Below are positions 20,336 to 59,940 of a stretch of DNA of 64,000 nucleotides, in pieces. The position numbers and the translations under genes are program-made. The DNA is from Myxococcus fulvus (lineage in GTDB: Bacteria; Myxococcota; Myxococcia; Myxococcales; Myxococcaceae). The stretch lies in contig NZ_FOIB01000009.1 of NCBI RefSeq assembly GCF_900111765.1, forward strand, positions 62,001 through 126,000. The letters are read 5' to 3'. The notes under the pieces were generated by a model, which saw only the letters and a program-made list of their open reading frames with translations, ran no database searches and was not told the origin of the DNA. The first letter of the stretch is position 1. Every line of letters begins with the position of its first letter.

Positions 20336-20359
20336 AGCCGGGGTACCCCACCGCTTCAG
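20332..20359. terminator. Bidirectional hairpin between the GGDEF and GDSL genes
   Basis: CTGAAGC (20332-20338) pairs with GCTTCAG (20353-20359), with an inner GGGGTACCCC palindrome between them. It spans both convergent stop codons. Confidence 0.6.
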
Positions 20360-20958
20360 CGCGACACGAGCGTGCGCACCGTGGGCAGCATCAGGTCCGC
20401 CCACTCCTCGTAGCCCTCATCCGAGGGATGGAACCCGTCCTGCGAGAAGAAGTGCGTCGAGCGCGGGAACATCTCCCGGCTGGCCGAGTGCAGGTCCACC
20501 AGGTGCAGCCCCTCCGCGCGCGCCACCTCGGCGATGGCCGCGTTGAAGGGCTCGATGCGGCCCTCGTAGAGAGTGCTCGGCACCATCTGGGCAATCGGCG
20601 CCAGCGCCATGTCCGCGATGTTGACCAGCGCGAGCGGCGCGCCGGTCTGCTTGAGCCTGCGCGCAATCCGCTCCAGGTCCTCGCGGAAGTCCTCCAGCGC
20701 GGTGCCGCGCCAGATGTCGTTGGTGCCCACGCCCAGTGTCACCAGCGTCGGCTGCACGGCCACCGCCGCCTTGACCTGTCCGGTGAAGACATCCCGGATG
20801 CGCGCGCCGCTGACGCCCAGGTTCGTCAATCCGAGTGACAGCCCGTCCCGACGCAATCGCGAGGCGAGGCGCTCCGGATAGCCCCCGCCCCGCGTCGCGC
20901 CCACGCCCACCGCCGTGCTGTCCCCGAGCGCGACGTAGTTGACGCTCATGTGCTCCAT
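20356..20958 (-). CDS. SGNH/GDSL-family hydrolase
   Basis: This 200-residue esterase/lipase-like protein has block I ALGDSTAVGVG (nucleophile Ser; GDST instead of GDSL), the block II Gly in NLGVSGARI, block III GTNDIW, and block V DGFHPSDEGY with the catalytic Asp and His. No signal peptide is visible, so it probably acts in the cytoplasm. The start lies 8 bases after the htrA stop, with GGAGGG spanning the junction, so the two genes are probably translated from one mRNA. The ATG three codons later (20949) is an equally plausible start. The substrate cannot be inferred. Confidence 0.9.
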   Translation of the reverse strand: MEHMSVNYVALGDSTAVGVGATRGGGYPERLASRLRRDGLSLGLTNLGVSGARIRDVFTGQVKAAVAVQPTLVTLGVGTNDIWRGTALEDFREDLERIARRLKQTGAPLALVNIADMALAPIAQMVPSTLYEGRIEPFNAAIAEVARAEGLHLVDLHSASREMFPRSTHFFSQDGFHPSDEGYEEWADLMLPTVRTLVSR

Positions 20959-20966
20959 TCCCTCCG

Positions 20967-22424
20967 CTACGGAACGCGCAGCGCGCGCAGCAGGCGGCCG
21001 CCACCGGGCCCCGTCACGCGCAGCAGCAACGTGCTGCCCGCGGGCGCGGCGCGAATCGCCTTGGCCAGGTCATCCGCGCGGGCCACCGGCTTGCGATTGA
21101 CCTCCACCACCACCATGCCCGCCTCGAGCTGCGCGCGGTCCGCGGGAGAGCCGGGCACCACGTCGGTGATGAGCGCGCCCTGGCGATCCGTGAAGCCGGC
21201 CTGCTGCGCCGTGCGAGCATCCAGGTTCTGCAGGCTGACGCCCACGCGGCGGGAACTCTCCTGCGACTCGTCCCCCTCCTGCTTGCGCGCGGCCACGCCC
21301 TCCAGGTCTGGCCGCGTGCCGAGCGTCACCTTCACGTCCTGCTTCTTGCCCTCGCGGAACACCGTCATCGTGGACGTGCTGCCCGGACGCTTGAGCGCCA
21401 CCGTGCGCGTGAGCTGGCCGCTGGACGTCACCTGCTGTCCGTCGATGGCGGTGACGACGTCGTCCGACTTCAGCCCCGCCTTCGCCGCGGGCGAGCCCGG
21501 GTTCACCTGCGTGAGGATGGCGCCCTCGGTGACGGGCAGCTTGAGCGCGCCCGCCAGGTCCCGCGTCAAATCCTGGATGCCGACGCCCAGCCACGCGCGC
21601 GTGACGGAGCCGTCCTTCTCCAGCTGCGGCACCAGCGCCTTCACCAGGTTGCTGGGCACCGCGAAGCCGATGCCGGTGCCACCGCCGACGATGGCCGTGT
21701 TGATGCCGACGACCTCGCCCTTCATGTTGAACAGCGGACCGCCGGAGTTGCCCGGGTTGATGGCGGCGTCCGTCTGGAGGAACTCGTCATACTGGCTCGC
21801 GCCGATGTCGCGCGCGCGCGCCGAGACGATGCCCAGGCTGACGCTGGAGGCCAGGCCGAATGGGTTGCCGATGGCGACCACCCAGTCCCCCACGCGCAGC
21901 GCGTCCGAGTCGCCCAGCTTCACCGTGGGCAGCCCCTCCACCTTGTCCTTGAGCTTCACCAGCGCGACGTCCGTCAGAGGGTCCCTCCCCACGACGGTGC
22001 CGGCGAACGAGCGCCCGTCATCCAGGCGCACGGTGATGGAGACGGCGCCCTCCACCACGTGGTTGTTCGTGAGGACGATGCCCGTCGGCTCGATGATGAA
22101 CCCGGAGCCCGCGCCCTGGCGCAGCGGCTCCCGCCCGCCCCGCCCGCCGCCGAAGAAGCGGTCGAAGAGCGGGTTGTCATCCATGCCACCGCCCATCCCC
22201 CTGGGACCGCCGCCCCCGCGCGCCTGCACGTCCACGTTGACGACGGCGGACTTCACCGATTCCACCAGCGGAGCCAGGGACGGCAGTGCCTGCGCCTCCC
22301 GCGTCGCGGGCTGGAGGTTGCCCGGCGGGGTCTGAGCCGGAGCCTGGGCCCAGGAGACCGACGGGACGGCGAGCAGGAGCGCGCCGACCAGGGCCCTGCG
22401 GAACATGACGGGAGAACGGTTCAT
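20967..22424 (-). CDS. htrA: HtrA/DegP-type periplasmic serine protease
   Basis: This 485-residue envelope quality-control protease has a Sec signal peptide (residues 1-26, ends SVSWA-QA), a Gly-rich loop with a Phe (about 68-98) typical of the LA-loop region, and a trypsin-like domain with catalytic His122 (TNNHVVEG), Asp152 (DPLTDVALVKL) and Ser227 (NPGNSGGPL). Two PDZ domains follow (about 285-380 and 395-480; LGVGIQDLTRDLA and GVSLQNLDARTAQ). The ATG at 22424 is chosen. A GTG two codons earlier is possible. It is followed directly by the GDSL hydrolase gene. Whether it corresponds to DegP, DegQ or DegS cannot be decided by eye. Confidence 0.95.
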   Translation of the reverse strand: MNRSPVMFRRALVGALLLAVPSVSWAQAPAQTPPGNLQPATREAQALPSLAPLVESVKSAVVNVDVQARGGGGPRGMGGGMDDNPLFDRFFGGGRGGREPLRQGAGSGFIIEPTGIVLTNNHVVEGAVSITVRLDDGRSFAGTVVGRDPLTDVALVKLKDKVEGLPTVKLGDSDALRVGDWVVAIGNPFGLASSVSLGIVSARARDIGASQYDEFLQTDAAINPGNSGGPLFNMKGEVVGINTAIVGGGTGIGFAVPSNLVKALVPQLEKDGSVTRAWLGVGIQDLTRDLAGALKLPVTEGAILTQVNPGSPAAKAGLKSDDVVTAIDGQQVTSSGQLTRTVALKRPGSTSTMTVFREGKKQDVKVTLGTRPDLEGVAARKQEGDESQESSRRVGVSLQNLDARTAQQAGFTDRQGALITDVVPGSPADRAQLEAGMVVVEVNRKPVARADDLAKAIRAAPAGSTLLLRVTGPGGGRLLRALRVP

Positions 22425-22501
22425 ATGCACCCCAAGCTAAAGCCGAAATGCGGTCCCGCAAGCGAAACGGCCTGTGGGCGGTCATCCAGCGGAACGTGGT
22501 G

Positions 22502-24091
22502 TCAGCCAGGCCGGTAGAGGCGGTAGTCCAGCTCCGGGAAGACGTTGTCGCGCGCCTCCAGCCCGGTGAGCCAGGGCTCGTCCAGGGTGCCCGCGCGGAG
22601 CTCGTCGTGCAGGCGGAGGAAGTGGCGCACGTGCTCCTGGGTGCGGCGCTTGGCGTAGTCCACCATGGTGCCCGTCTTCATGATGAAGGCCCAGTCGGAG
22701 CTCTGGGCGAGCAGCAGCTCGCGCGCGGCCTGGTTGAGCGCGCGCCGCTGCGAATCGGTGGCCTCCGGGAAGTCCCGGGCCAGCTCCACCATCTTCCGCG
22801 CGCAGTGGTTCAGGTGTCGGTAGACCCAGTCGTTGCTGTCATCCAGCCACATGTGCGCGTAGCCGCCCGCGCCCCACGAGGACATCGGCGGCGTGGCCAC
22901 CTGATTCTCCGGGTGGTCTCGCAGGTCGTCCGCCGGCGTCACCAGGTCGAAGGTGGACTGGGCGCGCGCGGCCTGACGGATGAAGGACTCGAGGAACCAC
23001 GGGCCCTCGAACCACCAGTGGCCGAAGAGCTCCGCGTCGTACGGGGCCACCACCACGGGCTTGCGGCCTCCGAGTCGCGAGGCGAGGTACTCGAGCTGCC
23101 GCTGCCGGTTGAAGAGGAAGTTGCCGGCGTGGACCTCGGCGCGTGCTCGGGCTCGGGCCGGGTCATACGGCTGCTTCTCGTTCGTCTTGCCGGTGATGCG
23201 GTAGTACTTGAAGCCGGTGTTCTTCCGGTCCCCCGTGGGCTGGATGTACGGGCGGATGTAGTCCTGCTCCAGGTCCCAGCCGATGTCCCGGTAGAACTCG
23301 CGGTACTCGGGGTCGCCGGGGTAGCCGTACTCGGAGCTCCAGACCTGCTGACTGCTCTCGGGGTCTCTCGCGTACGCGGCGACGCCGGCCTCGGTGAAGA
23401 TGGGCGCGTAGGGCCCGTGGAGCGGACGCGGCGTGGCGTCCGTGAGGCCGTGCGTGTCGACGAAGAAGTACCGGATGCGCTCGGCGGCGAGCACGCGCTC
23501 CAGGCCCGGGAAGTAGCCGCACTCGGCCAGCCAGATGCCCGCGGGGTCCTTCCCGAAGTTCTGCCGGTAGTGGTTGGCGGCGACCGACACCTGCGCGCGC
23601 ACGGCCTCGGGGACCTGCTGCATCAGCGGCAGGAAGCCGTGGGTCGCGTTGCACGTGAGGATGTCCAGGTGGCCCGCGTCCTGGAGTCGGCGGAACGCGG
23701 AGACGAGGTCGCCTCGGTAGCGGTCGTGGAAGGCGCGGCGCAGCGACTCGAAGTGGTCGCGGTGGAAGCGCGCCAGGGGACCGAAGGTGGCGTCGGTCTT
23801 CGTGCGGTGGACCTCGCGTTCCCCCAGCTCACAGAGCTGGTCGAGCTTCCTCGCGTAGCGCTTCATCAACAGCTCGTCGCGCAGCATCGTGACGAGCGTG
23901 GGTGACAGCGTCATCGCCAGGCGGAACGGGACGCCGTCCTCCGCCAGGGAGTCGAACGCGAGGAGCAACGGGAGGTAGGTCTCGGAGATGGCCTCGTAGA
24001 GCCAGTCCTCCTCGAGGAAGTCCTCGTGCTCGGGATGGCGGACGAACGGCAGGTGCGCGTGGAGGACGAGAGAAAGGGAGCCCAGGCTCAT
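22502..24091 (-). CDS. GH57-family 1,4-alpha-glucan branching enzyme
   Basis: This 529-residue glycoside hydrolase 57 protein has the branching-enzyme length and layout: an N-terminal distorted barrel beginning SLVLHAHLPFVRHPE, a Glu nucleophile at position 190 in GIWLAECGY, and the acid/base Asp at position 352 in APYDAELFGHWWFEGP. A C-terminal helical region (about 410-529) contains WGAGGYAHMWLDDSNDWVYRHL. By family it forms alpha-1,6 branches in glycogen-like glucan in the cytoplasm. It is 25 bases downstream of the DUF4912 gene and divergent from a GT4 glycosyltransferase, which points to a shared polysaccharide pathway. Substrate specificity is inferred from family only. Confidence 0.9.
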   Translation of the reverse strand: MSLGSLSLVLHAHLPFVRHPEHEDFLEEDWLYEAISETYLPLLLAFDSLAEDGVPFRLAMTLSPTLVTMLRDELLMKRYARKLDQLCELGEREVHRTKTDATFGPLARFHRDHFESLRRAFHDRYRGDLVSAFRRLQDAGHLDILTCNATHGFLPLMQQVPEAVRAQVSVAANHYRQNFGKDPAGIWLAECGYFPGLERVLAAERIRYFFVDTHGLTDATPRPLHGPYAPIFTEAGVAAYARDPESSQQVWSSEYGYPGDPEYREFYRDIGWDLEQDYIRPYIQPTGDRKNTGFKYYRITGKTNEKQPYDPARARARAEVHAGNFLFNRQRQLEYLASRLGGRKPVVVAPYDAELFGHWWFEGPWFLESFIRQAARAQSTFDLVTPADDLRDHPENQVATPPMSSWGAGGYAHMWLDDSNDWVYRHLNHCARKMVELARDFPEATDSQRRALNQAARELLLAQSSDWAFIMKTGTMVDYAKRRTQEHVRHFLRLHDELRAGTLDEPWLTGLEARDNVFPELDYRLYRPG

Positions 24092-24116
24092 GGTCGGTCG
24101 GAAGGTCCGTGGAGGT

Positions 24117-26588
24117 TCACGAGCGGCCGCCGCCCGAGGGCGGCTTCCGATGCGAGGGCTCGTTCGAGACAGCGGTTGGAGGACTCCTGACCTCCAGGAC
24201 GCGCTCGGAGGCGGCGCGGTCCCTGGCGTCCGACGACCCGGGGGGCGCGTCGAAGAAGCCCGACACGGGGATGACCGAGGCGGGCTCGTCGTGTTGCGGC
24301 GGCGCTGGCTCGCGAGTCTCGCGTGAGCGTGCCTCGAAGTAGCCGGACTCCGGCGAGGTGGGCGTCACGGCGCCGGGGAGCTCACGGGTACCGCGTGGCG
24401 CCTCGCTGTTCGCCGGTGTGGATGCGCCAGACACCGCAGGGCCCTGGTGAAGGTCAGAACCATCGCGCGAGGACGTGTCCCCGTAGCGCAGGTCCGAGGC
24501 CTCCAAGGCTCGCGACGTCACCTCGACGTGGCGGGACGCCGACACATCGCCATGAGGCGGGCCCGAGACGACCACGGGAGACGCGAGGGGCATGAAGTCC
24601 GAGCTGGTCATCGCTCGCGGAGGTGACGCGAGGTACTGCCAGCCCGCGGCGTCGCCGTAGGCCCAATCCGATGCACCCGAGGCTCGCGGAGGTGACTCCA
24701 GGTAGCGCCAGCCGGACGCCCCCGGGACCTGTGCGGAAACATCGAAGTACCGCATGTCCGAAGCGCCCGGAGCACGTGTGGGCGATTCGAAGTACCGCCG
24801 GTCGGACGCCTGCGGCGTGGTGCCACCCGGGGCGTCGATGTACCGCATGTCCGATGCGCCCGGAGCCCGACCGACCTCCAGATACGCATACGTGGGGCGC
24901 GGGCCTTCGACGGGTGGACGGGCTCCTTCGAGCCTGCCCACCGAGGGCGCTTGATATCGCTGGTCCGAAGCCCCGGGAGCGCGCGGCTGCCCCACTTCGA
25001 GATACACGAGCGTGCGCGGCGCGGGAGGCGCGAGGGGCGGCTGCTCCGCGTAGCGCATGTCCGAGGCGCCGGCCATCCGAGCCTGGGCTTCGAGGTAGCG
25101 CTGCGAGGCGACGTAACGCTGATCCGAGGCGCCCGGCGCGCGTCCGATGCCAGCGAGGTGCGGCCCCGAGGATTCGCCCGGGAGCACGCCCTCGACACCG
25201 AAGCGCTCGCGATGGACGACGGGGATGTCCTTCACCCCCGCGCTTCCTGGCAGCTCCACGCGGTGCCAGGTGACGTACTCGCGCTCCTCCACCGGAGGCA
25301 CCTGGCGCTTGGGAACGGGAGGCGCCTCGGGCTCCACGGGGACCGGGCGACGCATGAACCGCACGGTGGTGTCGGTCGACACGCCCGCCGGAGGAACCGC
25401 CACACGATTGCTGGAGCCACCGATTCTACGCGAGCGCCCGTCGCGCCCGACGAAGTGCGCCTCGATGCGGTACAGGCGTCCGGAGGGGAGCCCGTGGATG
25501 TAGTAACCGCGCGTCTCGAGCACGCAGTCGAGCTCGCGCACGAGCGCGTCTCCATCGAAGACCCTCAACACGGAGCGAGGTGAATCGAGGTCACGCATCG
25601 CGCGCGTCCGCGTCGCGGCGCTGAAGTCCCAGAGCGCGAAGAGCGTGTTCGGATCTCTCGCGAGCAACAACACCGTGTCGTCCTGGTACTCGGAGGGCAA
25701 CGCATCCTGCGCGGCGGTGTGCCCCTCGCCTCGCTCCGCGGACACGGGCGGGTGCTCGACCTTCTCCTGGAGGTGGTGACGTCGGGCCTCGCCCTCGCCG
25801 GCGACACGGGCGACGAAGAAGCCTTCGATGACCGGCTCCGCGCGATGCTGCTCGACGGGAGCAGGCCCGGGCGGCGCAGCCTGGGATGGCGCGGAGGAAC
25901 TCGTCGGCTCTGAAGGAGTGGGTGCCGAGCCCTCGGCCTCCGCTTGCGCGGGTTCACGAGGCGCTCGGGGCTTGGGCGGAAAGTTCACCACCTGCGCGGG
26001 CCGGGCCGAGGGAGGACCGCCGGGCTTCTCGGAGGCGCGCTTCGCGGCCACGCGCTTGGGGGCGGACACCCTCCCCTGCTCCGAGGGCTCCTCCACCCGG
26101 GAACGACCCGGCTTCGGTTTCGACTCGACGGGCGCCTTCGCCACCGGGGCCGCCCCAGTCACCCTCTTCGAGGCCGGCGTCTCCTTCGTGGCGCCTCCGC
26201 GAGCCGCCGGGGCCTTGGCCTTGGCGGACACGGCCGGGCCCTTTGACGCGGGGGCCTTCGCCGGGGGCGCCGCCTTCGCGGGGGCCCGTGGCCTGGCGGT
26301 CTTGGAGGTCGGCGCGGGGGCCTTGGCCGCGGCGGCCTTCACCGGCGGAGCGGGTCGGGTCGCGATTTTCGCCGGGACCGGAGTTTTTTCAGCCGGGGCC
26401 TTCTTCGCGGCGGCCTTCTTCCCGGGAATCTTGATGCCCGCCAGCCGGGCGAGCTTCGCCAGCGCGGGCACGAAGGCGGCCAGGGCGGCGATCAACTCTT
26501 CCTTCTTGAGCTTGCTGTATCCGCTCCCCAGGTGCTTCCGAGCCAGCTCTCGCAGGGAGCCGACGGTGACGCTCTTGAGGTCGTCCAT
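24117..26588 (-). CDS. DUF4912 protein with Rho-N-like start, basic linker and GASDxRY repeats
   Basis: This protein has about 823 residues. Its N-terminal 45 residues resemble the Rho termination-factor N-terminal/SAP helix pair (VGSLRELARKHLGSGYSKLKK). An Ala/Lys/Pro-rich, histone-H1-like linker follows to about residue 290. The DUF4912 domain (about 297-416) starts EYQDDTVLLLARDPNTLFAL and ends near TTVRFMRRP. The C-terminal half is low complexity and carries about nine degenerate copies of GASDxRY (nt 24480-25130). No enzyme motif was seen. DUF4912 genes are known beside GH57 and GT4 genes, as here. The ATG is used. A GTG two codons upstream (26594) has better spacing to an AAAGG site. 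Confidence 0.85.
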   Translation of the reverse strand: MDDLKSVTVGSLRELARKHLGSGYSKLKKEELIAALAAFVPALAKLARLAGIKIPGKKAAAKKAPAEKTPVPAKIATRPAPPVKAAAAKAPAPTSKTARPRAPAKAAPPAKAPASKGPAVSAKAKAPAARGGATKETPASKRVTGAAPVAKAPVESKPKPGRSRVEEPSEQGRVSAPKRVAAKRASEKPGGPPSARPAQVVNFPPKPRAPREPAQAEAEGSAPTPSEPTSSSAPSQAAPPGPAPVEQHRAEPVIEGFFVARVAGEGEARRHHLQEKVEHPPVSAERGEGHTAAQDALPSEYQDDTVLLLARDPNTLFALWDFSAATRTRAMRDLDSPRSVLRVFDGDALVRELDCVLETRGYYIHGLPSGRLYRIEAHFVGRDGRSRRIGGSSNRVAVPPAGVSTDTTVRFMRRPVPVEPEAPPVPKRQVPPVEEREYVTWHRVELPGSAGVKDIPVVHRERFGVEGVLPGESSGPHLAGIGRAPGASDQRYVASQRYLEAQARMAGASDMRYAEQPPLAPPAPRTLVYLEVGQPRAPGASDQRYQAPSVGRLEGARPPVEGPRPTYAYLEVGRAPGASDMRYIDAPGGTTPQASDRRYFESPTRAPGASDMRYFDVSAQVPGASGWRYLESPPRASGASDWAYGDAAGWQYLASPPRAMTSSDFMPLASPVVVSGPPHGDVSASRHVEVTSRALEASDLRYGDTSSRDGSDLHQGPAVSGASTPANSEAPRGTRELPGAVTPTSPESGYFEARSRETREPAPPQHDEPASVIPVSGFFDAPPGSSDARDRAASERVLEVRSPPTAVSNEPSHRKPPSGGGRS

Positions 26589-26721
26589 AGGCACCGTTCG
26601 CCTTTAGGTCGCTGGCACTGGAGGGTCAACGTGCCAGCATTGCTTGTGTTCGTCGCCCGACCCCCTCAGCTTCTCATCAACCGATGACACCCACGATGCG
26701 GCTGGGTATTCTGCCCCCGCT

Positions 26722-29700
26722 TTGAGCGACCTGCCCAGACTGCTCCTGTGCAGCTTCGACGTCATCCCCGGCCCATCCGGCTCGTCACGCCGTTTGACCG
26801 AGTACCTCAAGGCGTTGCCCGACCGCTTCTCTGTGGTGGTGCTATCGGCGAAGACGCCTGACCACTCCCATATCGAGAAATACCAGGGCGCTCGGCTGCT
26901 GCGCGTGCCGGTAGGCTCGGGGGACCTCGCCTCGCGAATCCAGGCCTTCGAGCGGGCCGTCCGGCGCCAGCTCGAGAGCGAGGACTACGCGCTCGCCCAC
27001 TTCACGGACCCCTTCGGGGGTTACGCGTTGTGCGAGCTCAAGGGGGACTACGGCTACCGCCTCATCTATGAGGCGCAGACCTTCCCGTCCCAGGAGCTGC
27101 GCTACACGCACCCGCAGACGGAGGGCGACCGGCGCTTCCTGTCGAAGGTCCGCAGGCAGGAGCTGTTCTGCCTGATGAACGCGGACCGCATCATCACCGG
27201 CTCCGAGACGACGCGCTCGTACATCCAGTCCCTCGGCGCGAGCGAGGAGCTCATCCGTGTCGTGCGAGCCCCCGTGGACCTGGGGCCCTTCTCGCCCGAC
27301 GTGCTGGGCGCTCCGGACGGGGAGCCGCTGCGGCTGATGTACCTGGGCAGTCACGTGGGCTGGCAGGGGCTGCCCACGCTGCTGCGCGCCGTGGCGCTGG
27401 CGGCGAAGCAGGTGGAGGTGCGGCTGACGCTCGTGGGCGCGCAGCACCCGGACTGGCAGCCGCACCTGGACGAACTGGTGAAGGAGCTCGGCCTGAAGGA
27501 CCAGGTGGAGTTCCAGCCTCCGGTGCACCACGACGACGTGGCGAAGGTGCTGGCGCTGGCGGACGTGGGCGTGCTGGCGCTCGACGACGTGGAGCGCAAC
27601 CGGCTGCAGGGCGGACCGCTGGCGAAGGTGTCCGAGTATTGCGCCGCGGGCCGGCCCATCATCGCCGCCGACCTGCCGGTATGCCGAGAGCTCATCCCGG
27701 CGGACGCGGCGGTGTTCTTCCCCGTCGGCGACAGCCAGGCGATGGCCGACCGCATCGTCGAGCTGGCGCGCGACGTCCCGCGGCGAATCGAGCTGGGGCA
27801 GCGGGCGCGGGAGCACGCCGAGTCGGCGCTCGACGCGGGTGTCATCCGCGGTCAGTTGCTGGATATCTACGACTCGCTGTTGGACAAGCGCTCGGTCCCC
27901 GTGTCGGGCCGGAGCGAGGATGACCTGCCCGCGGCGACGATGGTGACGGGCACGCCGACCAGTCGGCTCGCGTCGCTGCTGCCGCCCGACAGCGGGCGCA
28001 TCAAGGTTCCGCAGCCGGCGAAGCGAGAGCCCGTCGAGGAGAAGCCCGCCGAGCCCCCGTCCGAGGCGGCCGCCGAGGAGCCCCCCGTGGTGATGGGGAT
28101 GGTGCTCGAGGATGGGTTCGATACGCGGCTCATCAAGACGGAGCCGGACGCGCGGCCCATCGAGCCTCCCGTCGTCATGGGGCTGCCGCTGCGTGAGCGC
28201 GCCGCGCAGACGTCGAGTCCGAGCGCCTCTTCGTCGACCTCGGTCCCGACGACTTCCGAGCCCACGCCGGTGACCGCGCAGGGGATCCCTCCGGATCCGA
28301 CGCCGGTCACGCCCCGTCGCACGACGGAGCCCGAGGAGCCGGAGCAGGACGCACCTGAAGCATCACCTCGTCGAGAGGATGCGCACGAGGAGGGCGCGGC
28401 AGAAGAGCGGCTCTCGAAGGTCCCGCCGCATGGGACGCCCCGGCTTGGGGATGAGCCACCGGCGCCGACGCCCGTGGAGTCGCAATCGGCGAGGTTCCCG
28501 GACGAGTCGCGCGAGGAGATGGGCGCGAAGGAGGTCCGGGACGAACGCGCCGAGGAACCTTCTTCGCCAACGCCCGTGGTCCGCGCGCCCGCTCCGCTTC
28601 CGATGGATGAGCCGCCGTCCCCCACGCCCATCATCCGCATGCCGGCCTCCCTGAGGGATGACCGGGGCGCGCTGGCACGGGACGGAGGGTCCTATTCCAA
28701 CGGTCGCCATTCGACGCGAGAGGAGCCGCCTTCACCGACGCCCATCATCAAGGCGCCCGCGCCATTGCCGTTCGACGAGCCGCCCGCGCCCACGCCCATC
28801 GTCAAGGCGCCCGCGCCGCTGCCGAGGGATGAGCCGCCTTCGCCCACGCCCATCGTGCGCAGCCCCCTCGCATCGCGAGCGGAGGACGACGCACCGGCAC
28901 CGACTCCGATCATCCCCGCGCGCTCGGTGCTCGCGAGTCGGAGCACGTCCGCACGGGTCGAGACACCGTCGCGTCGGATGGCGCCCCTCACGTCGCAGAC
29001 GAAGGGCGCACCGGATGGGGACCGAGGATCGACGCGAGCCGACTCGGAGCGTCCGTCGGTTCGTGGGGCACCCGTACCGGATCCGGAGCGTCCCGCAGGG
29101 CGCACGGGGGCGTCAGCGGACTCCGAGCCACCCTCGGTTCGCGGCACACCCCTCCCCGACGCGGAGCGCCCCAACGGGCGCACGGGTGCGGATTCCGAAC
29201 GTCCCTCTGTCCGAGGCACGCCCGCGCCCGAACCCGAGCGCCCCAGCGGACGCGCGAGCGCGGACCCTGAACGCCCCTCCGTGAGAGGCACCCCCGTCCC
29301 CGAGCCAGAGCGCCCCTCCGGACGTACGAGCGCGGACTCGGAACGCCCATCGGTCCGAGGTGCGCCTGTCCCTGAACCGGAGCGGCCCTCGACGCGAGGC
29401 ACGCCCGCGCCCGAACCCGAGCGTCCCTCCGGGCGCACAGCCTCCATCACGGATGAGCGGCCCTCGACGCGAGGCACTCCTGTCCCCGAACCCGAGCGCC
29501 CCAGCGGACGCGCGAGCGCGGACTCCGATCGCCCCTCCGTCCGAGGAACCCCCGTCCCCGAACCGGAACGCCCCTCCGGGCGCACCCCCACAGTCCCCGA
29601 GCCCGAACGGGCCTCCGTGCGCATCCCGAATCCCGACTCGGAGCGGCCTTCGGTCCGAAGCCCCCTGCCAGAGCTGGCCGCTCGCGGCCACACCACCGAC

Positions 29701-30534
29701 CCGGAGCGCAACACCCCGCGCCCCTCCGGCATCGTCGAACCGGAGCGTCCCCGCACGGGTGAGACGGATCGCCTCCCGCCCCTCGTCCGTCCCAGCCCGC
29801 CCCCCGACCTCTCGCGCAGCGGATCACGCGGCAGCGCGCTCGACCCGGATCGCCCCCCGCCCATCCTCACCCCGGGAGCCGGCACTCCTTCCGTCGGAAA
29901 GTCCTCCCTGCTGGGCGACCTCCCGCCTCCCGACACCGACCGAGCCCCCCCCCCCCCCCCCCCTCGCGCCACCAGCGCCCCGCCGCCCGTTCCCCGGCAG
30001 CGGCCGCCGCGCCTCTTGTCCATCGACGGGCCCCCTCGACTGGAGCCCATCGACACGTCCGCGTCCCGCCCCGGTCTGCCCGCCATCAGGTCCCCCGAAT
30101 CCGAGGACGAACCGGAGGAGATCTCCGAGGACGAGGCCCACGCCATCGAGGATGGCGAGGAGGCGGGCCCCACTCCGCCCCACTCGCGCCCACGTCTGGA
30201 CGACGAACCGGACGAAATCAGCAGCGACGAGGTCGAGGACGCCGAGGTCTCCGCCAGCAGCGCCGCCCAGCTCGTCGAGGACGAGGACGACCTCCAGGAA
30301 GCCGACGCGGACCCCATCCCCGACGAGAACGAGGGCCCCCCGCCCGAGCCGCTCTCCTCGACGCTGAACCCCTGGTTCGCCCAGCTCGCCCACGGCTACT
30401 GTCCACCGGAAGGCACTCAGTTCGCGCGCCACACGCCCCCCACCACCTTCCCAGGGCGGGACGACGACGCGGATCCATCCCGAACGCCCTCCGCCCCCCG
30501 TGCACCAGGCGTCGTTCGTGGCAAGGGCTCGTGA
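26722..30534 (+). CDS. GT4-family glycosyltransferase with a very long disordered repeat tail
   Basis: About 1270 residues. Residues 1-380 are a GT-B glycosyltransferase: a GPSGSSRR nucleotide-site-like loop near the start, HFTDPFGGY and YEAQTFPSQELRY in the N-terminal half, then the GT4 half with RLMYLGSHVGWQGLPTLLRA, LTLVGAQHPDW and the KVSEYCAAGRPIIAADLP donor-site region. The remaining 890 residues are Pro/Ser/Arg/Glu-rich and disordered, with PPSPTPII and ERPSxRG repeats, a 19-C run, and a C-terminal peptide NPWFAQLAHGYCPPEG that looks conserved. No ATG fits the start. TTG 26722 lies 8-9 bases after a TATTCT -10 element. An alternative TTG is at 26644. It is divergent from the DUF4912-GH57 pair. 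Confidence 0.85.
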   Translation: MSDLPRLLLCSFDVIPGPSGSSRRLTEYLKALPDRFSVVVLSAKTPDHSHIEKYQGARLLRVPVGSGDLASRIQAFERAVRRQLESEDYALAHFTDPFGGYALCELKGDYGYRLIYEAQTFPSQELRYTHPQTEGDRRFLSKVRRQELFCLMNADRIITGSETTRSYIQSLGASEELIRVVRAPVDLGPFSPDVLGAPDGEPLRLMYLGSHVGWQGLPTLLRAVALAAKQVEVRLTLVGAQHPDWQPHLDELVKELGLKDQVEFQPPVHHDDVAKVLALADVGVLALDDVERNRLQGGPLAKVSEYCAAGRPIIAADLPVCRELIPADAAVFFPVGDSQAMADRIVELARDVPRRIELGQRAREHAESALDAGVIRGQLLDIYDSLLDKRSVPVSGRSEDDLPAATMVTGTPTSRLASLLPPDSGRIKVPQPAKREPVEEKPAEPPSEAAAEEPPVVMGMVLEDGFDTRLIKTEPDARPIEPPVVMGLPLRERAAQTSSPSASSSTSVPTTSEPTPVTAQGIPPDPTPVTPRRTTEPEEPEQDAPEASPRREDAHEEGAAEERLSKVPPHGTPRLGDEPPAPTPVESQSARFPDESREEMGAKEVRDERAEEPSSPTPVVRAPAPLPMDEPPSPTPIIRMPASLRDDRGALARDGGSYSNGRHSTREEPPSPTPIIKAPAPLPFDEPPAPTPIVKAPAPLPRDEPPSPTPIVRSPLASRAEDDAPAPTPIIPARSVLASRSTSARVETPSRRMAPLTSQTKGAPDGDRGSTRADSERPSVRGAPVPDPERPAGRTGASADSEPPSVRGTPLPDAERPNGRTGADSERPSVRGTPAPEPERPSGRASADPERPSVRGTPVPEPERPSGRTSADSERPSVRGAPVPEPERPSTRGTPAPEPERPSGRTASITDERPSTRGTPVPEPERPSGRASADSDRPSVRGTPVPEPERPSGRTPTVPEPERASVRIPNPDSERPSVRSPLPELAARGHTTDPERNTPRPSGIVEPERPRTGETDRLPPLVRPSPPPDLSRSGSRGSALDPDRPPPILTPGAGTPSVGKSSLLGDLPPPDTDRAPPPPPPRATSAPPPVPRQRPPRLLSIDGPPRLEPIDTSASRPGLPAIRSPESEDEPEEISEDEAHAIEDGEEAGPTPPHSRPRLDDEPDEISSDEVEDAEVSASSAAQLVEDEDDLQEADADPIPDENEGPPPEPLSSTLNPWFAQLAHGYCPPEGTQFARHTPPTTFPGRDDDADPSRTPSAPRAPGVVRGKGS
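28590..28880 (+). repeat. PPSPTPII/IK peptide-coding repeats in the glycosyltransferase tail
   Basis: There are five or so imperfect tandem units encoding (D/E)EPP(S/A)PTPI(I/V)(R/K)xPAPLP, about 50-60 bases each. They are direct in-frame repeats inside the disordered tail. Confidence 0.75.
29040..29720 (+). repeat. ERPSxRG peptide-coding repeats in the glycosyltransferase tail
   Basis: More than a dozen imperfect units built on SERPSVRGxPxPEPERPSGR run in frame across about 680 bases. Such runs are prone to length change by slippage or recombination. Confidence 0.8.
29945..29963 (+). repeat. Run of 19 C inside the glycosyltransferase gene
   Basis: An unbroken C19 tract encodes six Pro. The frame stays open across it as given, so any one-base slip would change the C-terminal 190 residues. 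The exact length should be treated as uncertain. Confidence 0.85.
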
Positions 30535-30633: not shown

Positions 30634-33600
30634 ATGGAGCGCCGCGTCCTCATCGTTGAAAGCCAGAACGACTTCGCCCTCAGCATGGCGACCGTGCTCA
30701 AGAGCGCGGGTTACCAGACCGCCATGGCGGCGACCGCGACGGATGCGCAGCGCGAGCTGGAGAAGCGCCGACCGGATCTCGTCGTCCTTCGGGCCGAGCT
30801 TCCGGATCAATCCGGTTTCACGCTGTGCGGGCAGATCAAGAAGGGCAAGTGGGGCCAGAACCTCAAGGTCCTACTCCTCTCCTCCGACACGGGCGTCGAG
30901 GGCCTGACGCAGCACCGGCAGACGCCGGGCGCCGCGGACGGCTACCTCGTCATCCCCTTCGAGATGGGGGAGCTGGCCACGATGAGCACGGGCATCATGC
31001 CGCCGGGCCAGGACGAGTCGGATGCATCGCTCGACGCCGCGCTCGCCGGTAACGCGCCGCGCGAGGCGCCGCCCCCCATGCCCGGCATCCGCACCAGCGC
31101 CGGCGGTCCGCCCAAGCTCCCCAAGCGCGAGCGCCGCAGCGCGATGACAGAGGAGGACCGCGCCTTCCTGGACCGCGCCTTCCAGTCCATCGCCGACCGC
31201 AAGGCGGAGCTGCTCGCCGAGTCGCGTCAGCTCAAGCGCCCTCCCCCGCGCCGCGAGCTGATGGGCACGCCGGAGGGGAAGATTCAAATCCTCCGCGACG
31301 AGCTCAAGACGCGCGAGGCCCAGCTGGCCCGCCTCTCCGAGATCTGGAGCGTGCGCGAGCGCGAGCTGCTCTCCGGCGAGGACCGCCTCCACGAGAAGGA
31401 CGTGGAGCTGCAGGGCCTCAAGATGCAGGTGGACGACCTGCTGCGGCGCTTCAACGAGGCCCAGCAGGCCATGCTCCAGAAGGAGCGCGAGCACGGCGCC
31501 ACCGTCGACGACCTGCTGCTGCAGAAGTTCTCCTCGGAGAAGGACCTCATCGAGGTCGTCGCCTCCAAGGAGAAGGACATCAACCTGCTGCGCAAGGAGG
31601 TCCACAACCGCGACGACGACCTCGCGCGGCGGGGCGCCGAGCTGGAGCACCTGCGCGGCGAGTACGAGAAGCTCGACAAGCACCTCAACGTCGTCACGCT
31701 GGAGTTCGAGGTCAAGGAGCAGAAGCTCCAGGACAGCGTGCGCGCGCACGAGGCCGAAGAGGCCCGGCTGGGCAAGCGCGGTGACGACTTCGAGGCGGAG
31801 CTGGGCCGCACCGTCAGCGAGCGCGACCAGCGCTACGCCGAGCTGGACGGCGAGATCCAGGCCCTCCAGGAGCGGCTGCAGCAGACCGAGCAGGAGCGCG
31901 ACTCCACCGTGCGCGGCCTGGAGACGCGCGCCGCCTCCGCCGAGGAGCACGGCGCCCGCGCCGACGCGGAGATCACCCGGCTGAACGCGGAGCGCGACGC
32001 GCTCGAGGCGCGGCTCAGCCAGCAGGTGGCGGACCTGGAGACGGACCTCGCGCGCACCACCGGCGAGCGGGATCAGCTCCGGCTGGACAAGGACGCCCAG
32101 GAGGCGGAGCTCAGCCAGCGCATCGAGGACCGCGACGCCAAGATCTCGGCGTTGGACCGCGAGCTGTCGGAGACCATCGCCCGCAACGAGCGCACCGAGG
32201 CGGACCTCAACTCCAGCATCCAGCAGCAGCTGGAGCGCATCGGCGAGCTGGAGGGCGAGGTCGAGGCCGTCAAGGCGCACCTGGCCGACCGCGAGGCCGA
32301 GCTCACCGGGGAGCTGCAGGCGCTCACCGACGCGAAGAACGCGCTGGAGGAGGACCTCACCGGCCGCCTGGAGGCGCTGACCGTCGCCAAGGACGCGCTG
32401 GAGGAGGACCTCACCCGCCAGCTCGAGGAGGTCCGCTCCGCCAAGGCCGAGCAGGAGGCCGACCTCACCGGGCAGATCCAGGCCCTCACCTCGCAGCTCG
32501 AGGAGGCCCAGAACCAGGGTGAGCAGCTCCAGGCGCGCGTCGCGTCGCTGGAGGACACCGTTGCCCAACGCGAGTCCACCATCGAGGGACTCCAGGGCGA
32601 TGTCGCCACGCGGGATCAGCGCATCTCCGAGCTGACCGGGGACCTGGAGGCCACCAGCCAGACGCTGGCGCAGACACAAGGGACGCTGGCGCAGACCGAG
32701 CAGCAGCTCGCGGACACACAGGGCACCCTCGCCTCCACCGAGCAGTCACTGGCCGAGACGCGCGGCGAGCTGGAGGCCACCAGCCAGTCGCTGTCCGAGA
32801 CGCAGACGCGCCTGGCCCAGACGGAGGAGGCGCTGTCCTCCACGCGCGGGGAGCTGGACGCCACCAGCCAGACGCTCGCGCAGACGCAGGACACCCTCTC
32901 CCGCACCGAGCAGCAGCTCGCGGACACGCAGAACACGCTCGCGAACACGGAGCAGTCGCTCTCCGAGACGCGCGGCGAGCTGGACGCCACCAGCCAGACG
33001 CTGGCGCAGACGCAAGGGACGCTGGCGCAGACCGAGCAGCAGCTGGCGCAGACACAAGGCACGCTCTCGCAGACCGAGGGCAGCCTGGCCGAGACGCGCG
33101 GCGAGCTGGAGGCCACCAGCCAGACGCTCACCCAGACGCAGAACACGCTGGAGGAGACGCGCGACGAGCTCGGCACCACCACCGCGCACCGGGATCAGCT
33201 CAAGCTGGAGCTGGACGAGACGCGCACGGTGCTCCAGGAGACGCAGGCCTCGCTGTCCCGGACCACGGGCGAGCGGGATCAACGCGTCGCCGAGCTCCAC
33301 GCCCTGGGCGAGGCCAAGGACGCGCTGGAGCAGCTGCTCACCGGACAGATCGGCCAGCTGCGCGGCGAGCTGTCGGAGACGCTGGGCAACTACGAGGCGG
33401 AGCGCGCCGCGCACGAGAAGCTCGCCGCGGAGACGAGCGCCACCATCGAGGCGCTCACCGGGGAGCGTGACGGGCTGCGCTCGGAGCTGGAGGCCACCAG
33501 CCAGACGCTGGAGCAGGTGCAGGGCCAGCTCGCCGCCACCCGCGACGCGCTGTCGCGCGAGCAGCAGGCGCACACCACCAGCCGTCAGCAGGCGGCCAGC

Positions 33601-34995
33601 ACCCAGTCCTCGCTGGAGGGCGAGCTCAACGAGGCGCGCAACCAGGCGGAGGAGCTGGGCGAGCAGCTCACCATCACCAAGCACGAGCTGGGCGCCCGCG
33701 TCGCGGACGTCACCCAGCTCACCGCGCAGCTCGCCCAGGTGGAGGACACCCGCGCGAACCTGAAGGAGCGCCTGGACGCCCTCACCGAGGAGTCCCAGCG
33801 CCGCGAGGAGCTGCTCCAGAACGACCTGGCCAACAAGGGCAAGGAGCTCTCGGACACGCTGCGCAAGCTCACCCAGGTGACGCAGGAGAAGATGCGTCAG
33901 GCCGAGGTGCTCAACCGCGAGGTCGCCACCCGCACCGAGCAGGTGAAGGTCCTGGAGACCAAGCTCCAGACGCAGGCCACCGACGCCAAGCGCCACGCGG
34001 ACGGGCTCGGCCAGCAGATGGCCGGCCTGAACAACCAGCTGGAGCTGGCGAAGAAGGCGCTCGGCGAGCGCGAGGAGCAGCTGCGCGCGGCGGGCACGAG
34101 CCACCAGAAGCTGACCCAGGAGCGCGACGGCCTCGCCGGTCAGCTCCAGCAGGCGCAGGCCGCCCAGGCGCAAGCGGCGCAGGCCCAGCAGCAGGAGCGC
34201 GCCGAGGCGAAACGCGCGTCCGACGAGCTGGCGGCGAAGCTGGCCAAGGCCGAGCAGCGCATCGCCCAGCTCACCCAGGAGGCCCAGGCGAAGGCGGCCG
34301 ACGCGGACGCCAAGGCCAAGGACCTGCAGGGACAGCTCGCCACCCGCACCAAGAAGGTGCAGGACCTGGAGCTGGCGGTGGAGAACGCGCAGGGCGCCAA
34401 GGCCCGCGCGGAGAAGGACCTGGCCGCCAAGGTGGCCGCCGCCGAGGGCAAGGCCAACGAGGCCGCCGCCCGCCTCGCCACCGCCCAGAAGGAGCGCAAG
34501 GACCTGGAGGCGCGTCAGCTGCGCGAAATCGAGGAGCTCAACACCAAGCAGAAGGCGGAGCTCGAGCGTCGCGAGGCCATCAAGCTGCAGGAGGTCACCC
34601 GCCTGCAGCAGTCCGTCCAGGAGAAGAGCAAGGCGCTCAAGGTCGCCGAGCTGGAGCTGGCTCGCTACAAGAGCAAGGCCCCCGCCGCCACGCCCGCCCC
34701 CGTCGCCGCCAAGGCCGCCAAGGCTCCGGCTCCCGTCGAGGACGACGAACTGGCCACCCGCCCGCAGCTCAACCAGGTCATCCCCGCGGCCGCCGCCCCC
34801 GCTCCCGCCAAGGCCGCCAAGGCCGCCGCGAAGCCCGCCGCCGCGAAGAAGGCCGCCGCTCCCGCTCCCGCCCCTGCCCCGCTGGGTGGCGACGATTCGG
34901 ACCCCTCGGACCGCACCATGCTCATCCAGCTGCCCGCCCAGGCCGCCAAGGAGGATGACGACTGGACGGCCCTGGTGGACGAGCTGGACAAGTAG
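30634..34995 (+). CDS. aglZ: AglZ-like gliding-motility regulator: pseudo-receiver plus giant coiled coil
   Basis: This 1453-residue protein has an N-terminal receiver-like domain (about 1-118) with a broken phosphorylation site: the phospho-acceptor position is Arg53 (VVLRAELP) and the conserved Lys of the KPF motif is Ile107 (VIPFE). A Pro-rich linker is followed by about 1150 residues of nearly continuous coiled coil (about 210-1375), then an Ala/Lys/Pro-rich stretch and an acidic tail with SDRTMLIQLPAQ. This is the architecture of Myxococcus AglZ (about 1395 residues), which organises gliding-motility focal adhesions with MglA and Frz signalling. FrzS is similar but much shorter. An AAAGGG site precedes the ATG. 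Confidence 0.88.
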   Translation: MERRVLIVESQNDFALSMATVLKSAGYQTAMAATATDAQRELEKRRPDLVVLRAELPDQSGFTLCGQIKKGKWGQNLKVLLLSSDTGVEGLTQHRQTPGAADGYLVIPFEMGELATMSTGIMPPGQDESDASLDAALAGNAPREAPPPMPGIRTSAGGPPKLPKRERRSAMTEEDRAFLDRAFQSIADRKAELLAESRQLKRPPPRRELMGTPEGKIQILRDELKTREAQLARLSEIWSVRERELLSGEDRLHEKDVELQGLKMQVDDLLRRFNEAQQAMLQKEREHGATVDDLLLQKFSSEKDLIEVVASKEKDINLLRKEVHNRDDDLARRGAELEHLRGEYEKLDKHLNVVTLEFEVKEQKLQDSVRAHEAEEARLGKRGDDFEAELGRTVSERDQRYAELDGEIQALQERLQQTEQERDSTVRGLETRAASAEEHGARADAEITRLNAERDALEARLSQQVADLETDLARTTGERDQLRLDKDAQEAELSQRIEDRDAKISALDRELSETIARNERTEADLNSSIQQQLERIGELEGEVEAVKAHLADREAELTGELQALTDAKNALEEDLTGRLEALTVAKDALEEDLTRQLEEVRSAKAEQEADLTGQIQALTSQLEEAQNQGEQLQARVASLEDTVAQRESTIEGLQGDVATRDQRISELTGDLEATSQTLAQTQGTLAQTEQQLADTQGTLASTEQSLAETRGELEATSQSLSETQTRLAQTEEALSSTRGELDATSQTLAQTQDTLSRTEQQLADTQNTLANTEQSLSETRGELDATSQTLAQTQGTLAQTEQQLAQTQGTLSQTEGSLAETRGELEATSQTLTQTQNTLEETRDELGTTTAHRDQLKLELDETRTVLQETQASLSRTTGERDQRVAELHALGEAKDALEQLLTGQIGQLRGELSETLGNYEAERAAHEKLAAETSATIEALTGERDGLRSELEATSQTLEQVQGQLAATRDALSREQQAHTTSRQQAASTQSSLEGELNEARNQAEELGEQLTITKHELGARVADVTQLTAQLAQVEDTRANLKERLDALTEESQRREELLQNDLANKGKELSDTLRKLTQVTQEKMRQAEVLNREVATRTEQVKVLETKLQTQATDAKRHADGLGQQMAGLNNQLELAKKALGEREEQLRAAGTSHQKLTQERDGLAGQLQQAQAAQAQAAQAQQQERAEAKRASDELAAKLAKAEQRIAQLTQEAQAKAADADAKAKDLQGQLATRTKKVQDLELAVENAQGAKARAEKDLAAKVAAAEGKANEAAARLATAQKERKDLEARQLREIEELNTKQKAELERREAIKLQEVTRLQQSVQEKSKALKVAELELARYKSKAPAATPAPVAAKAAKAPAPVEDDELATRPQLNQVIPAAAAPAPAKAAKAAAKPAAAKKAAAPAPAPAPLGGDDSDPSDRTMLIQLPAQAAKEDDDWTALVDELDK
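32638..33180 (+). repeat. Heptad-based tandem repeats within aglZ
   Basis: In-frame units of 126 bases (42 residues) and 84 bases (28 residues), each starting G(D/E)L(E/D)ATSQ(T/S)L, repeat about five times. All units are multiples of seven residues, so copy number can change without breaking the coiled-coil phase. Confidence 0.85.
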
Positions 34996-59800: not shown

Positions 59801-59891
59801 CCGCGGCGCCGAGCGCGAGCGGGGCGAAGAGCAGCAGGGACACGAACGACAGCGCGACAGTGGATGCCCAGGTCCGGAGGGTGTGGTGCAT
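53841..59891 (-). CDS. Bacterial alpha-2-macroglobulin with thioester motif
   Basis: This 2016-residue protein has a Sec signal (about residues 1-29, LLLFAPLALGA) and no lipobox, so it is probably soluble in the periplasm or secreted. It has about 250 helical residues, then MG/bait-region beta domains (MG2-like SVYRPLQKLQWKVVAYTG), a Pro/Lys-rich insert (PPPPPTPPMEQK), the A2M segment LMVRPYVPRFLREGD, and the thioester motif CSEQ at 1479-1482 in PYECSEQTLNRF. The alpha-alpha barrel follows. The intact Cys and Gln predict covalent trapping of proteases. The usual partner PBP1C is not adjacent. A TAGAGT element ends 7 bases before the ATG. Confidence 0.93.
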   Translation of the reverse strand: MHHTLRTWASTVALSFVSLLLFAPLALGAAAAKAPPSWKDIDALESNQQYEAAAKGAEARLVKAREGQDEAEWTRALLRTVRLRRALHGYETAVRFLREEPWPKGQLSRAALNLYYANSLVTYARVYSWEVRQREQVASSGPVDLKAWTYSQLITEAQRAYEDLWKQRQALGQEPVKVLSEYLQLNTYPEGIRPTLRDAVTYLRVELLADSTHWLPEQANEVFKLDLRSLLEGTPVVDLTDPNIHPLVKVAAVLGDLESWHRAGGRREAALEARLRRYEVLHQHITDAEDRTRIREHLAAHLAGFKDVPWWSMGQGLLAEQENAAGHAVRAHALGKAGMAAFPKSLGASRCRTLVESLEAPDFRVVSMQSDGANRRSVEVTHRNVPALYFRAYPLDVEARLKKIDDYNLLPYGDALLRIIRSAKPLASWTTQLPATPDFQQHRTFVTPPLKDVGTYVIVASAREDFREKGNRIEASFLSVTPWVAITRNIRGQGVDARIVKGDTGVAAPDVSVRLVQMDYRQGLRTVARAKSNAQGEVSFDAPKGPSYQTFIVVVGEGKSALMLLNGVNFYPFSEPREVVSSLVFTDRSVYRPLQKLQWKVVAYTGQTSQSRYETMPHTSVKVRLIDPNYQEVASKEVRTNDFGSAAGEFTIPTGRLLGAWQVQVDSGGSTLVRVEEYKRPTFEVTLKDPDSPMRLNRPATFKGEARYYFGLPVASGTVRWRAYREPVLPWWWWYDTRFISQQRQLVAAGSSSVKEDGGFDITFTPEADERSASTPGLTWRYRVEADATDEGGETRSAERAFRLGFVAVEGRVETDTGFLSQGAKSEVRLVRSTLDGAPQPGEGRWRLVSLKQPAQPLLPADEPIPTPPNLKQDPAAAPSPTPGDALQPRWTQTYKPESVLARWADGAERAKGNVQHGQDGVAKVTLPALEAGAYRLHYETKDAFGQTFTVARELLVAGTKSPAELAAALVVEKSSVRVGEKARLLATSGFEGQPLVLDLYQGDKRILRKALVAGEAASVVEIPVTEAMRGGFTAVLVAVRDWQFVRFTEHVFVPWDNKELQLEFSTFRDKIRPGAKETWRVTVKGPQGAKVEAGAAELLAYMYDQSLDLFAPHTPPSVASLYPNRAESVDLGTSLTMSHAQWLVSQGYGEFSSWTPPSSDRLRFDDGYGVGGPGRRHRSARMSVGGVASPSAAAPEMARNESRVMREQDASEGAPPPPPPTPPMEQKAKAEKPNPGGQAEAPSSGLRSNFAETAFWVPHLITGNDGSASLEFTVPDSVTAWNVWVHGLTRDLKGGSAQRTTRSIKELMVRPYVPRFLREGDRAVLEVVVNNASEQQKQGTLTLDIIDPDTRKSLLSEFGVKNASQAFTVAAGRGTSLRFPLTTPTRVGQVAFRVEARSGDLSDGELRPLPVLPGRVHLAQSRFVTLKGPGSKTMRFDDLKNGGDSTRVNEQLVVTVDTQLFYSALQALPYLVDYPYECSEQTLNRFVSSGILGSLYDKYPAVAKMAKEMSQRESQFETWDAVDPNRKMALEETPWLEMAKGGREGNAGLVKVLDPKVARAERDSAMAKLRKAQTSSGGFPWWPGGPPSPYMTLYILHGLSRAMEYGVEVPADMTSRAWEYVARHYREEYSEKLMKKGVGWEFLTFLNYVASNYPNASYTGDALTEDERKAMLAFSFTHWKKHSPYLKGYLSLTLKRAGRNTDALKVWDSVMDSAKTSEELGTYWAPEDRSWLWYNDTTETHAFALRTLTELRPKDTRREGLVQWLLLDKKLNHWKSTRATAEALYALVKYLEAEGALGIREDAKVTVGPRVVRMEFAPDAYTGKKNQVVVPGPELQPETMSSVVVEKTTKGFAFASATWHFSTEMLPEEDRGDFFQVSRRYFRREREGKQVVLQPLKEGAMIAPGDEVEVQLSLRTKHAAEYVHLRDPRAAGLEPENVQSRHQWDLGIVWYEETRDSGSNFFFEWLPAGEYTFKYRLRANMAGTFRVGPATVQSMYAPEFTAYSSGAVITVGAAK

Positions 59892-59940
59892 GGTCGGCAC
59901 TCTAGACACAGGTGGCCGCCCCACCGTTCCACATTGCGGA

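Follow-up and report, generated by a model that had tools for sequence, protein, structure and literature searches.

A DUF4912–GH57 gene pair and a GT4 gene beside an aglZ-type gene: two candidate modules around one divergent start region in Myxococcus fulvus

This report concerns a 64,000-nucleotide (nt) stretch of Myxococcus fulvus DNA (assembly GCF_900111765.1, contig NZ_FOIB01000009.1, positions 62,001 to 126,000; the window), part of a genome of 10.8 Mb, and three genes within it: those for a GH57 enzyme (22502..24091, minus strand), a DUF4912 protein (24117..26588, minus strand; 823 amino acids from ATG 26588, or 825 from GTG 26594) and a GT4 enzyme whose catalytic core of 393 amino acids occupies 26722..27900 on the plus strand. 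Open reading frames (ORFs) and Pfam domains, including the GT4 domains, confirm the three genes as an earlier note on this DNA had described them. That note regarded them as a single glucan locus. Our reading, to which we give about an even chance, is that the divergent start region serves two modules: a DUF4912–GH57 pair, and a peptide-tethered GT4 together with the AglZ-type gene that follows it (30634..34995, plus strand). The pair survives from the earlier account, whereas the GT4 as a third glucan member is not supported.

The division comes from a survey of the GT4 neighbourhood. There were 62 loci with a GT4 match above 150 bits, of which 58 had more than 700 nt downstream and were kept, the other 4 being dropped. 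An AglZ-type gene on the same strand is next after the GT4 in 42 of the 58, namely in all 26 loci with DUF4912 and GH57, in both loci with one of the two, and in 14 of the 30 with neither in the stretch. Twelve of these 14 belong to genomes, several of them draft assemblies, without any GH57 or DUF4912 match (G069, G070, G071, G106, G143, G144, G147, G148, G150, G151, G152 and G154). Families f2 and f3 include 34 genomes with DUF4912, and none of these 34 has a GT4 match. Because the GT4–AglZ arrangement thus occurs without the pair, and the pair without the GT4, the GT4 goes with AglZ and not with the glucan pair. The adjacency spans families f1, f7 and f8.

The DUF4912–GH57 pair

We searched 195 Myxococcota genomes for DUF4912 (Pfam search) and for GH57 (protein search) and found the former in 128 and the latter in 141. 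Both were present in 128 genomes, GH57 only in 13, DUF4912 only in none and neither in 54, and three of the 13 GH57-only genomes (G107, G111 and G146) have a weak DUF4912 beside GH57 that was picked up by our own profile. In a chosen selection of 60 Myxococcota DUF4912 loci from 59 genomes, taken from 131 matches, an AmyC-type GH57 lies directly downstream on the same strand in all 60. These and the following pair counts are uncorrected for phylogeny. As a separate observation, DUF4912 is matched twice in each of three genomes (G041, G046 and G048), which also have a second GH57 at 54% identity; L068 is one of these second loci, with the second GH57 beside DUF4912.

A wider sample was obtained by a profile scan of genome contigs with the GH57 alignment, and the best 80 of 589 confirmed matches were taken. 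By title, these belong to Omnitrophota, Verrucomicrobia, Firmicutes, Nitrospirae, Margulisiibacteriota, Elusimicrobia, Planctomycetota and others, and they include one Thermoplasmata metagenome-assembled genome and Myxococcota seen before (L092, L142). DUF4912 is directly upstream of GH57 on one strand in 65 of these best 80 loci (64 by script; L142, whose GH57 ORF runs on upstream, was added by hand). Of the other 15, nine lie at contig ends, where the stretch upstream is shorter than 900 nt, and the remaining six (L097, L100, L132, L157, L165 and L168) are true misses; a search of these 15 genomes as a whole matched DUF4912 in 12 and not in the other 3. The 14 control genomes gave DUF4912 matches in Thermotoga maritima, S. 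elongatus and B. subtilis, two of the three over the cut-off, and matches to BE_C, which is broader than the AmyC type, in T. maritima, S. elongatus and Thermus. The association is strong and extends over many phyla, but with these exceptions it is not absolute. In other phyla, a fusion of NTP-transferase and phosphomutase is found near the pair in at least 12 of the best 80 loci. Another recurring neighbour, cluster c6 (representative of 687 amino acids), has no Pfam match and, in the locus inspected, overlaps GH57 on the opposite strand, and was set aside as most likely an antisense ORF artefact.

The GH57 protein of the window matches Pfam GH57 at 107.9 bits and BE_C at 138.3 bits, both over the cut-offs, and its top match in the Protein Data Bank (PDB) is T. 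maritima AmyC (2b5d) at 568 bits, the next being at 290. In an alignment of 16 sequences, 15 of them relatives, E200, C201 and D361 are invariant; we take the Glu and the Asp to be the catalytic residues of GH57 branching enzymes. C201 is the Cys in CSR-3 that is remarked on in PMC6616209. The long flexible catalytic loop with its Tyr (Tyr233 of TK1436) was not found in the window enzyme, in which the loop is shorter. A His stands at the aligned position of the AmyC loop Tyr, and a Tyr is found there in 5 of the 16 sequences. The missing loop does not exclude branching because AmyC, which according to PMC6616209 branches glycogen while being highly active in hydrolysis, has a short loop too; more 1,4-transfer is described for loop-less GH57 enzymes (PMC10346327, excerpt). 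The window enzyme is most likely an AmyC-type, loop-less branching or hydrolysing alpha-glucan enzyme, although the balance between branching and hydrolysis is not readable from its sequence. A canonical GH13 branching enzyme, GlgB (943 bits), and a GT5 glycogen synthase, GlgA (547 bits), are encoded elsewhere in the genome.

The partner protein meets DUF4912 (PF16258) at 56.8 bits against a cut-off of 29.4, and the domain (25368..25688, minus strand) is predicted to be an FN3-like beta-sandwich. The AlphaFold2 model was built from 62 sequences, i.e. 66 domain rows minus 5 (L099, truncated; both L133 rows; L145, short; L166, masked) plus the window row, and has a predicted local distance difference test score (pLDDT) of 91.7 and a predicted template modelling score (pTM) of 0.79. 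Its VIA match to the FN3 domain 8fn9_H has a Z of 10.2 and a root-mean-square deviation (rmsd) of 2.9 over 90 residues. Trp35 and Pro114 (counted along the modelled piece) are the same in all rows; at the position just before the Trp, at least 90% of the rows have Tyr and the window has Leu. No solved homologue was found by sequence, the best E value being 0.31, and our search of the open-access literature for DUF4912 returned only a cotton gene table, preprints and most subscription papers lying outside the search.

An identity as a carbohydrate-binding module was considered for the domain and not adopted. The structural matches shown are almost throughout FN3 domains, so that sugar binding is neither proved nor excluded. 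Two exceptions have some tie to polysaccharides. A Yersinia exopolygalacturonase ranks 38th, and for a longer model Vibrio RbmA ranks 2, 4 and 5, with TM scores of 0.14-0.16, an rmsd near 24 and an unusable superposition.

The domain is flanked by a basic linker of 247 residues and a C-terminal tail of 410 residues (24120..25349, minus strand), which contains eight SDx(R/A)Y repeats of the APGASDxRY type and ends in PPSGGGRS. Judged from composition alone, both are disordered, with order-promoting residues at 11% in the linker and 21% in the tail. Within the linker lies a short conserved segment, EPVIEGFFVARVAGEGEARRHHLQEK (25761..25838, minus strand; the FFVARV segment), which a simple pattern picked up in 18 of 25 listed DUF4912 proteins from Myxococcota. 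The Rho-N-like start described by the earlier note is visible as a Rho_N/SAP-like segment (26481..26582, minus strand), but its score for Rho_N (PF07498), 17.6 bits, is below the cut-off of 24.9; L107 scores 29.1 bits, and three of the eight other DUF4912 proteins scanned have a Rho_N stretch at E 0.0015 or better. Outside Myxococcaceae the flanks are variable, with Rho_N-like segments in some. Three of nine scanned proteins have Glucodextran_B matches near the C terminus, and one of these matches exceeds the cut-off. A model of one full-length relative (L101; pLDDT 77.2, pTM 0.43) shows a further beta domain, and its linkers are of low confidence. Because the domain stays constant while its arms change, DUF4912 proteins have the look that would be expected of an adaptor.

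Some further features of the arms were noted. As judged by eye, a hydrophobic, membrane-anchor-like stretch replaces the basic or Rho_N-like arm near the protein start in seven relatives, six from Firmicutes by title or name (L114, L133, L135, L152, L153 and L164) and one titled Actinobacteria (L137). In loci of other phyla such as L101, L103, L106 and L110, a recurring segment LYALSGG...SS, in Y-A-(L/M)-SGG forms, follows the domain, and some proteins (L101, L102 and L110) have a short segment like VEESK(F/Y) ahead of the domain.

The GT4 enzyme, its tail and its terminal peptide

The GT4 core belongs to the GT4 superfamily and reaches no curated NCBIfam cut-off, its best score being 60 bits for TIGR04063 against a cut-off of 442. 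Its matches are to stp3, EpsE, WcaL and MshA, and TIGR02149 (glgA_Coryne/GlgM) is absent from both the 14 families at E 0.001 and the 4 at 1e-8. The window GT4 is probably a cytosolic enzyme, nearest to those for surface polysaccharides. In other phyla, a GT4/GT5-like gene stands near the DUF4912–GH57 pair in at least 18 of the best 80 loci, many of which are short stretches. The window GT4 matches only 1 of these 18 proteins, at 17.6 bits, and the one representative scanned (L137) has glgA_Coryne as its top NCBIfam model, at 162.5 bits below the cut-off of 302.4. As the top scores of both enzymes are below the model cut-offs, we claim no substrate for the window GT4. The GT4 enzymes of the other phyla look like a different, glycogen-synthase-like subgroup. 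An inactive GT4, considered because of altered donor-site motifs, was dropped because the variant motif is known from other GT4 enzymes too.

Behind the core, the GT4 ORF runs on to 30534 with a tail of 877 residues (27901..30531, plus strand) that consists of 21% Pro and 14% order-promoting residues, as compared to 34% in the core, and that is called disordered by composition only. In a comparison with the relative L034, substitutions in the tail number 60, 37 and 200 at the first, second and third codon positions, and the changed codons are 171 synonymous and 84 non-synonymous. The tail is genuinely coding because third-position and synonymous changes predominate against this relative. In farther relatives, synonymous and non-synonymous changes in the tail are 225 and 240 (L033) and 193 and 340 (L037), and those in the core are 98 and 31 and 92 and 61, respectively. 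The tail is translated and drifts fast. The long disordered-looking regions of the earlier note, measured here at 877 residues in the GT4 and at 247 and 410 in the DUF4912 protein, are real features of the locus, and they are retained in relatives.

Near the C terminus of the GT4 lies a conserved peptide of 33 residues, LNPWFAQLAHGYCPPEGTQFARHTPPTTFPGRD (30364..30462, plus strand). Over 35 GT4 sequences the mean pairwise identity is 80% for the peptide, a region selected because it looked conserved, as compared to 66% for the core and 28% for the tail interior, whose length ranges from 130 to 1370 residues. Among 61 GT4 ORFs scoring more than 190 bits, the peptide or a degenerate form of it is present in 41 (35 with HGYCPP and 6 degenerate; L072 and L221 come from one genome), 4 are cut by a contig end and were left out of the counts, as were matches below 190 bits here and below 150 bits in the AglZ survey, and in 16 the peptide is absent. 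Codon changes in the peptide relative to 34 orthologs are 404 synonymous and 169 non-synonymous, and therefore it is the protein that is constrained and not some DNA site ahead of aglZ. We found no convincing second copy in the own genome, where the next match has an E value of 0.7. The earlier note, while right about the three genes, had missed both this peptide and the AglZ-type gene at 30634.

A separate group of GT4 enzymes, family f11 (L202-L206 and L213), has neither an AglZ neighbour nor HGYCPP, and its tails have in common a stretch LLGGPP(F/Y), which suggests a different docking peptide in that family.

The AglZ-type gene and the divergent start region

The AglZ-type protein begins with a pseudo-receiver (residues 1-116; PDLVVLRAELPD) that has an Arg at the place of the phospho-Asp, as judged by eye against the general receiver pattern. 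It continues into a proline-free stretch of 1136 residues (214-1349; 31273-34680), and both this length and SMC-like coiled-coil matches give it the appearance of a coiled coil. AglZ, which is MXAN_2991 in M. xanthus, is described as a paralogue of FrzS, the coiled coil being 1076 residues long in AglZ and 235 in FrzS (PMC4546325, excerpt). We considered FrzS as the gene after the GT4 and rejected it, since FrzS proper (602 amino acids) is on another contig; the FrzS structure 2gkg in the PDB scores 227 bits with the FrzS of this genome and 50 bits with the window protein. The M. xanthus gene tags follow the same order as the window, i.e. AglZ, (GT4), (DUF4912), GH57 and HtrA, with MXAN_2994 given as a family-57 glycosyl hydrolase (PMC12802240, excerpt) and MXAN_2995 as a trypsin-like peptidase (PMC9738627). 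From this numbering, MXAN_2992 would be the GT4 and MXAN_2993 the DUF4912 gene; neither tag is mentioned in the open-access literature searched, which left out preprints and most subscription papers. We use the AglZ label because architecture, synteny and the exclusion of FrzS agree. Among the titles and abstract openings listed by our open-access literature searches, none linked AglZ to a neighbouring glycosyltransferase.

The divergent region of about 130 bases in the earlier note measures 133 nt between the start of the DUF4912 gene and TTG 26722, the best GT4 start, which is kept in all four aligned rows that reach that far; L035 and L037 have a 1-nt indel just upstream of it. A sigma-70-like promoter, ATGACA-17-TATTCT (26684..26712, plus strand), is putative and was identified by its consensus match only, with 1 such site found versus 0.0 expected from shuffles. 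Its first hexamer, as GATGACA, is kept in all seven aligned rows, and the second, TAT(T/C)CT, in all four rows that reach it, the remaining three ending short. As 9 nt separate the end of this candidate promoter from the GT4 start, the GT4 RNA may be nearly leaderless.

On the other side of the locus, GH57 is followed by a syntenic HtrA/Do-type serine protease gene (20967..22430, minus strand; TIGR02037, 455.6 bits). The order HtrA-GH57-DUF4912-GT4 is identical in Corallococcus llansteffanensis (L134), and the neighbourhood comparison suggested by the earlier note finds the three genes together in a fixed order in Myxococcaceae-type genomes. Farther out on the HtrA side are a HAMP-GAF-GGDEF diguanylate cyclase (18410-20335, plus strand) and a GDSL-type lipase (20356-20958, minus strand). 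The window also encodes an alpha-2-macroglobulin-like bacterial protein of 2058 residues (53841-60017, minus strand) with MG2, bait region, A2M and bMG10.

Weighing the readings

The two-module reading would work as follows. DUF4912 would be a dedicated partner of the AmyC-type GH57, with an FN3-like domain on disordered arms, and would most likely keep the enzyme attached to its glucan or placed at a site in the cell. The terminal peptide of the GT4 would dock on a fixed partner that is constant in myxobacteria, and the first candidate is AglZ or its complex, the AglZ/MglA gliding-polarity machinery encoded next door, because the gene order is conserved. A disordered tether of very variable length would let the GT4 work near the docking site while leaving the distance free. 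Exopolysaccharide production is reported to be under the control of FrzS, to which AglZ is paralogous (PMC3158785, excerpt), and therefore a link between such a protein and a glycan has a precedent.

Several points weigh against this reading. The proposed tie between GT4 and AglZ is read from gene order and peptide conservation, and the peptide was itself chosen for its apparent conservation. The 58 loci divide into 40 with peptide and AglZ (two of them in one genome), 2 with AglZ alone, 16 with neither and none with the peptide alone, but these groups follow the tree, and because peptide and AglZ adjacency share a phylogeny the table is not independent evidence and is suggestive only. L209 and L210, from genomes of 2.7 and 2.3 Mb, have an AglZ-type neighbour and a GT4 without the peptide; L054 and L219 have an AglZ-type gene beside DUF4912–GH57 and no GT4; and 16 other Myxococcota loci have a related GT4 with neither AglZ nor peptide. 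An FN3 fold is too general to point to any ligand. Among the controls, DUF4912 occurs without BE_C in B. subtilis and BE_C without DUF4912 in Thermus. Finally, the one physical hint found concerns the GH57 MXAN_2994, which is among 11 proteins enriched with EpsW in a wild-type proximity-labelling set that did not cover AglZ; as that paper words it, this GH57 is not among the proteins that track EpsW phosphorylation (PMC12802240).

It is also possible, if less probable than the two-module reading, that the peptide acts within the GT4, by folding back on the core or by self-association, and that the adjacency of aglZ is an inherited order without function. The confinement of the peptide to one GT4 clade and the lack of any other protein in the own genome that carries it convincingly would fit this, as would the LLGGPP stretch that family f11 tails carry instead, so that tail peptides change with the core clade. 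However, a peptide that merely followed its core would not be expected to exceed it in identity within the clade, as this one does (80% versus 66%), and the AglZ adjacency persists over three families. It is quite improbable, in our judgement, that GH57, DUF4912 and GT4 act together in a single complex or condensate that makes glucan, as proposed in the earlier note. The fixed order, the shared start region, the 26 loci with all three genes and the fact that two of the three proteins have disordered arms speak for it, but the GT4 is found without GH57 and DUF4912 and vice versa, it differs from the glycogen-synthase type that accompanies the pair in other phyla, and canonical GlgA and GlgB are encoded elsewhere. 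Least probable of all is that the tails are fast-drifting, mostly neutral disorder on ordinary enzymes that act alone, for while the low interior identity, the wide length range and the many non-synonymous changes agree with drift, the GT4 terminal peptide is under constraint at the protein level and, in the DUF4912 linker, FFVARV is a recurring segment.

An extension of the two-module reading, which we consider unlikely, is that a GT4 held by its peptide on AglZ/MglA would localise glycan synthesis and re-polarise it with the direction of movement, and that bacteria in general would use DUF4912 as the subunit that targets their AmyC-type GH57 enzymes. If the peptide does bind the gliding or polarity machinery, glycan synthesis would be linked to the direction of movement in myxobacteria. 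As it stands, a little-studied family, DUF4912, gains a firm and testable partner in the AmyC-type GH57, and a GT4 with a sharply conserved, docking-like peptide is placed beside the gliding protein AglZ.

Known systems resemble parts of this locus. T. maritima shares with it the shortened catalytic loop region of AmyC and a DUF4912 match in its genome, but AmyC has Tyr220 in the short loop (PMC6616209, excerpt) where the window enzyme has His, and the window pair adjoins GT4–AglZ. Archaeal glycogen clusters are described as having GT4 genes with GH57 (PMC11046441, excerpt), a likeness in described gene content; in contrast to the scanned representative of the GT4/GT5-like genes near DUF4912–GH57, the window GT4 has no listed glgA_Coryne match. 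M. xanthus AglZ has in common with the window protein a receiver without phospho-Asp, a very long coiled coil and a matching gene order, the comparison covering architecture, synteny and exclusion of FrzS. Finally, EpsW of M. xanthus is a phosphorylated single-domain regulator and not a tethered enzyme, but EpsW–EpsZ, in which a response regulator acts on the first exopolysaccharide enzyme, is a case of a signalling protein that directly controls a polysaccharide enzyme (PMC12802240, excerpt).

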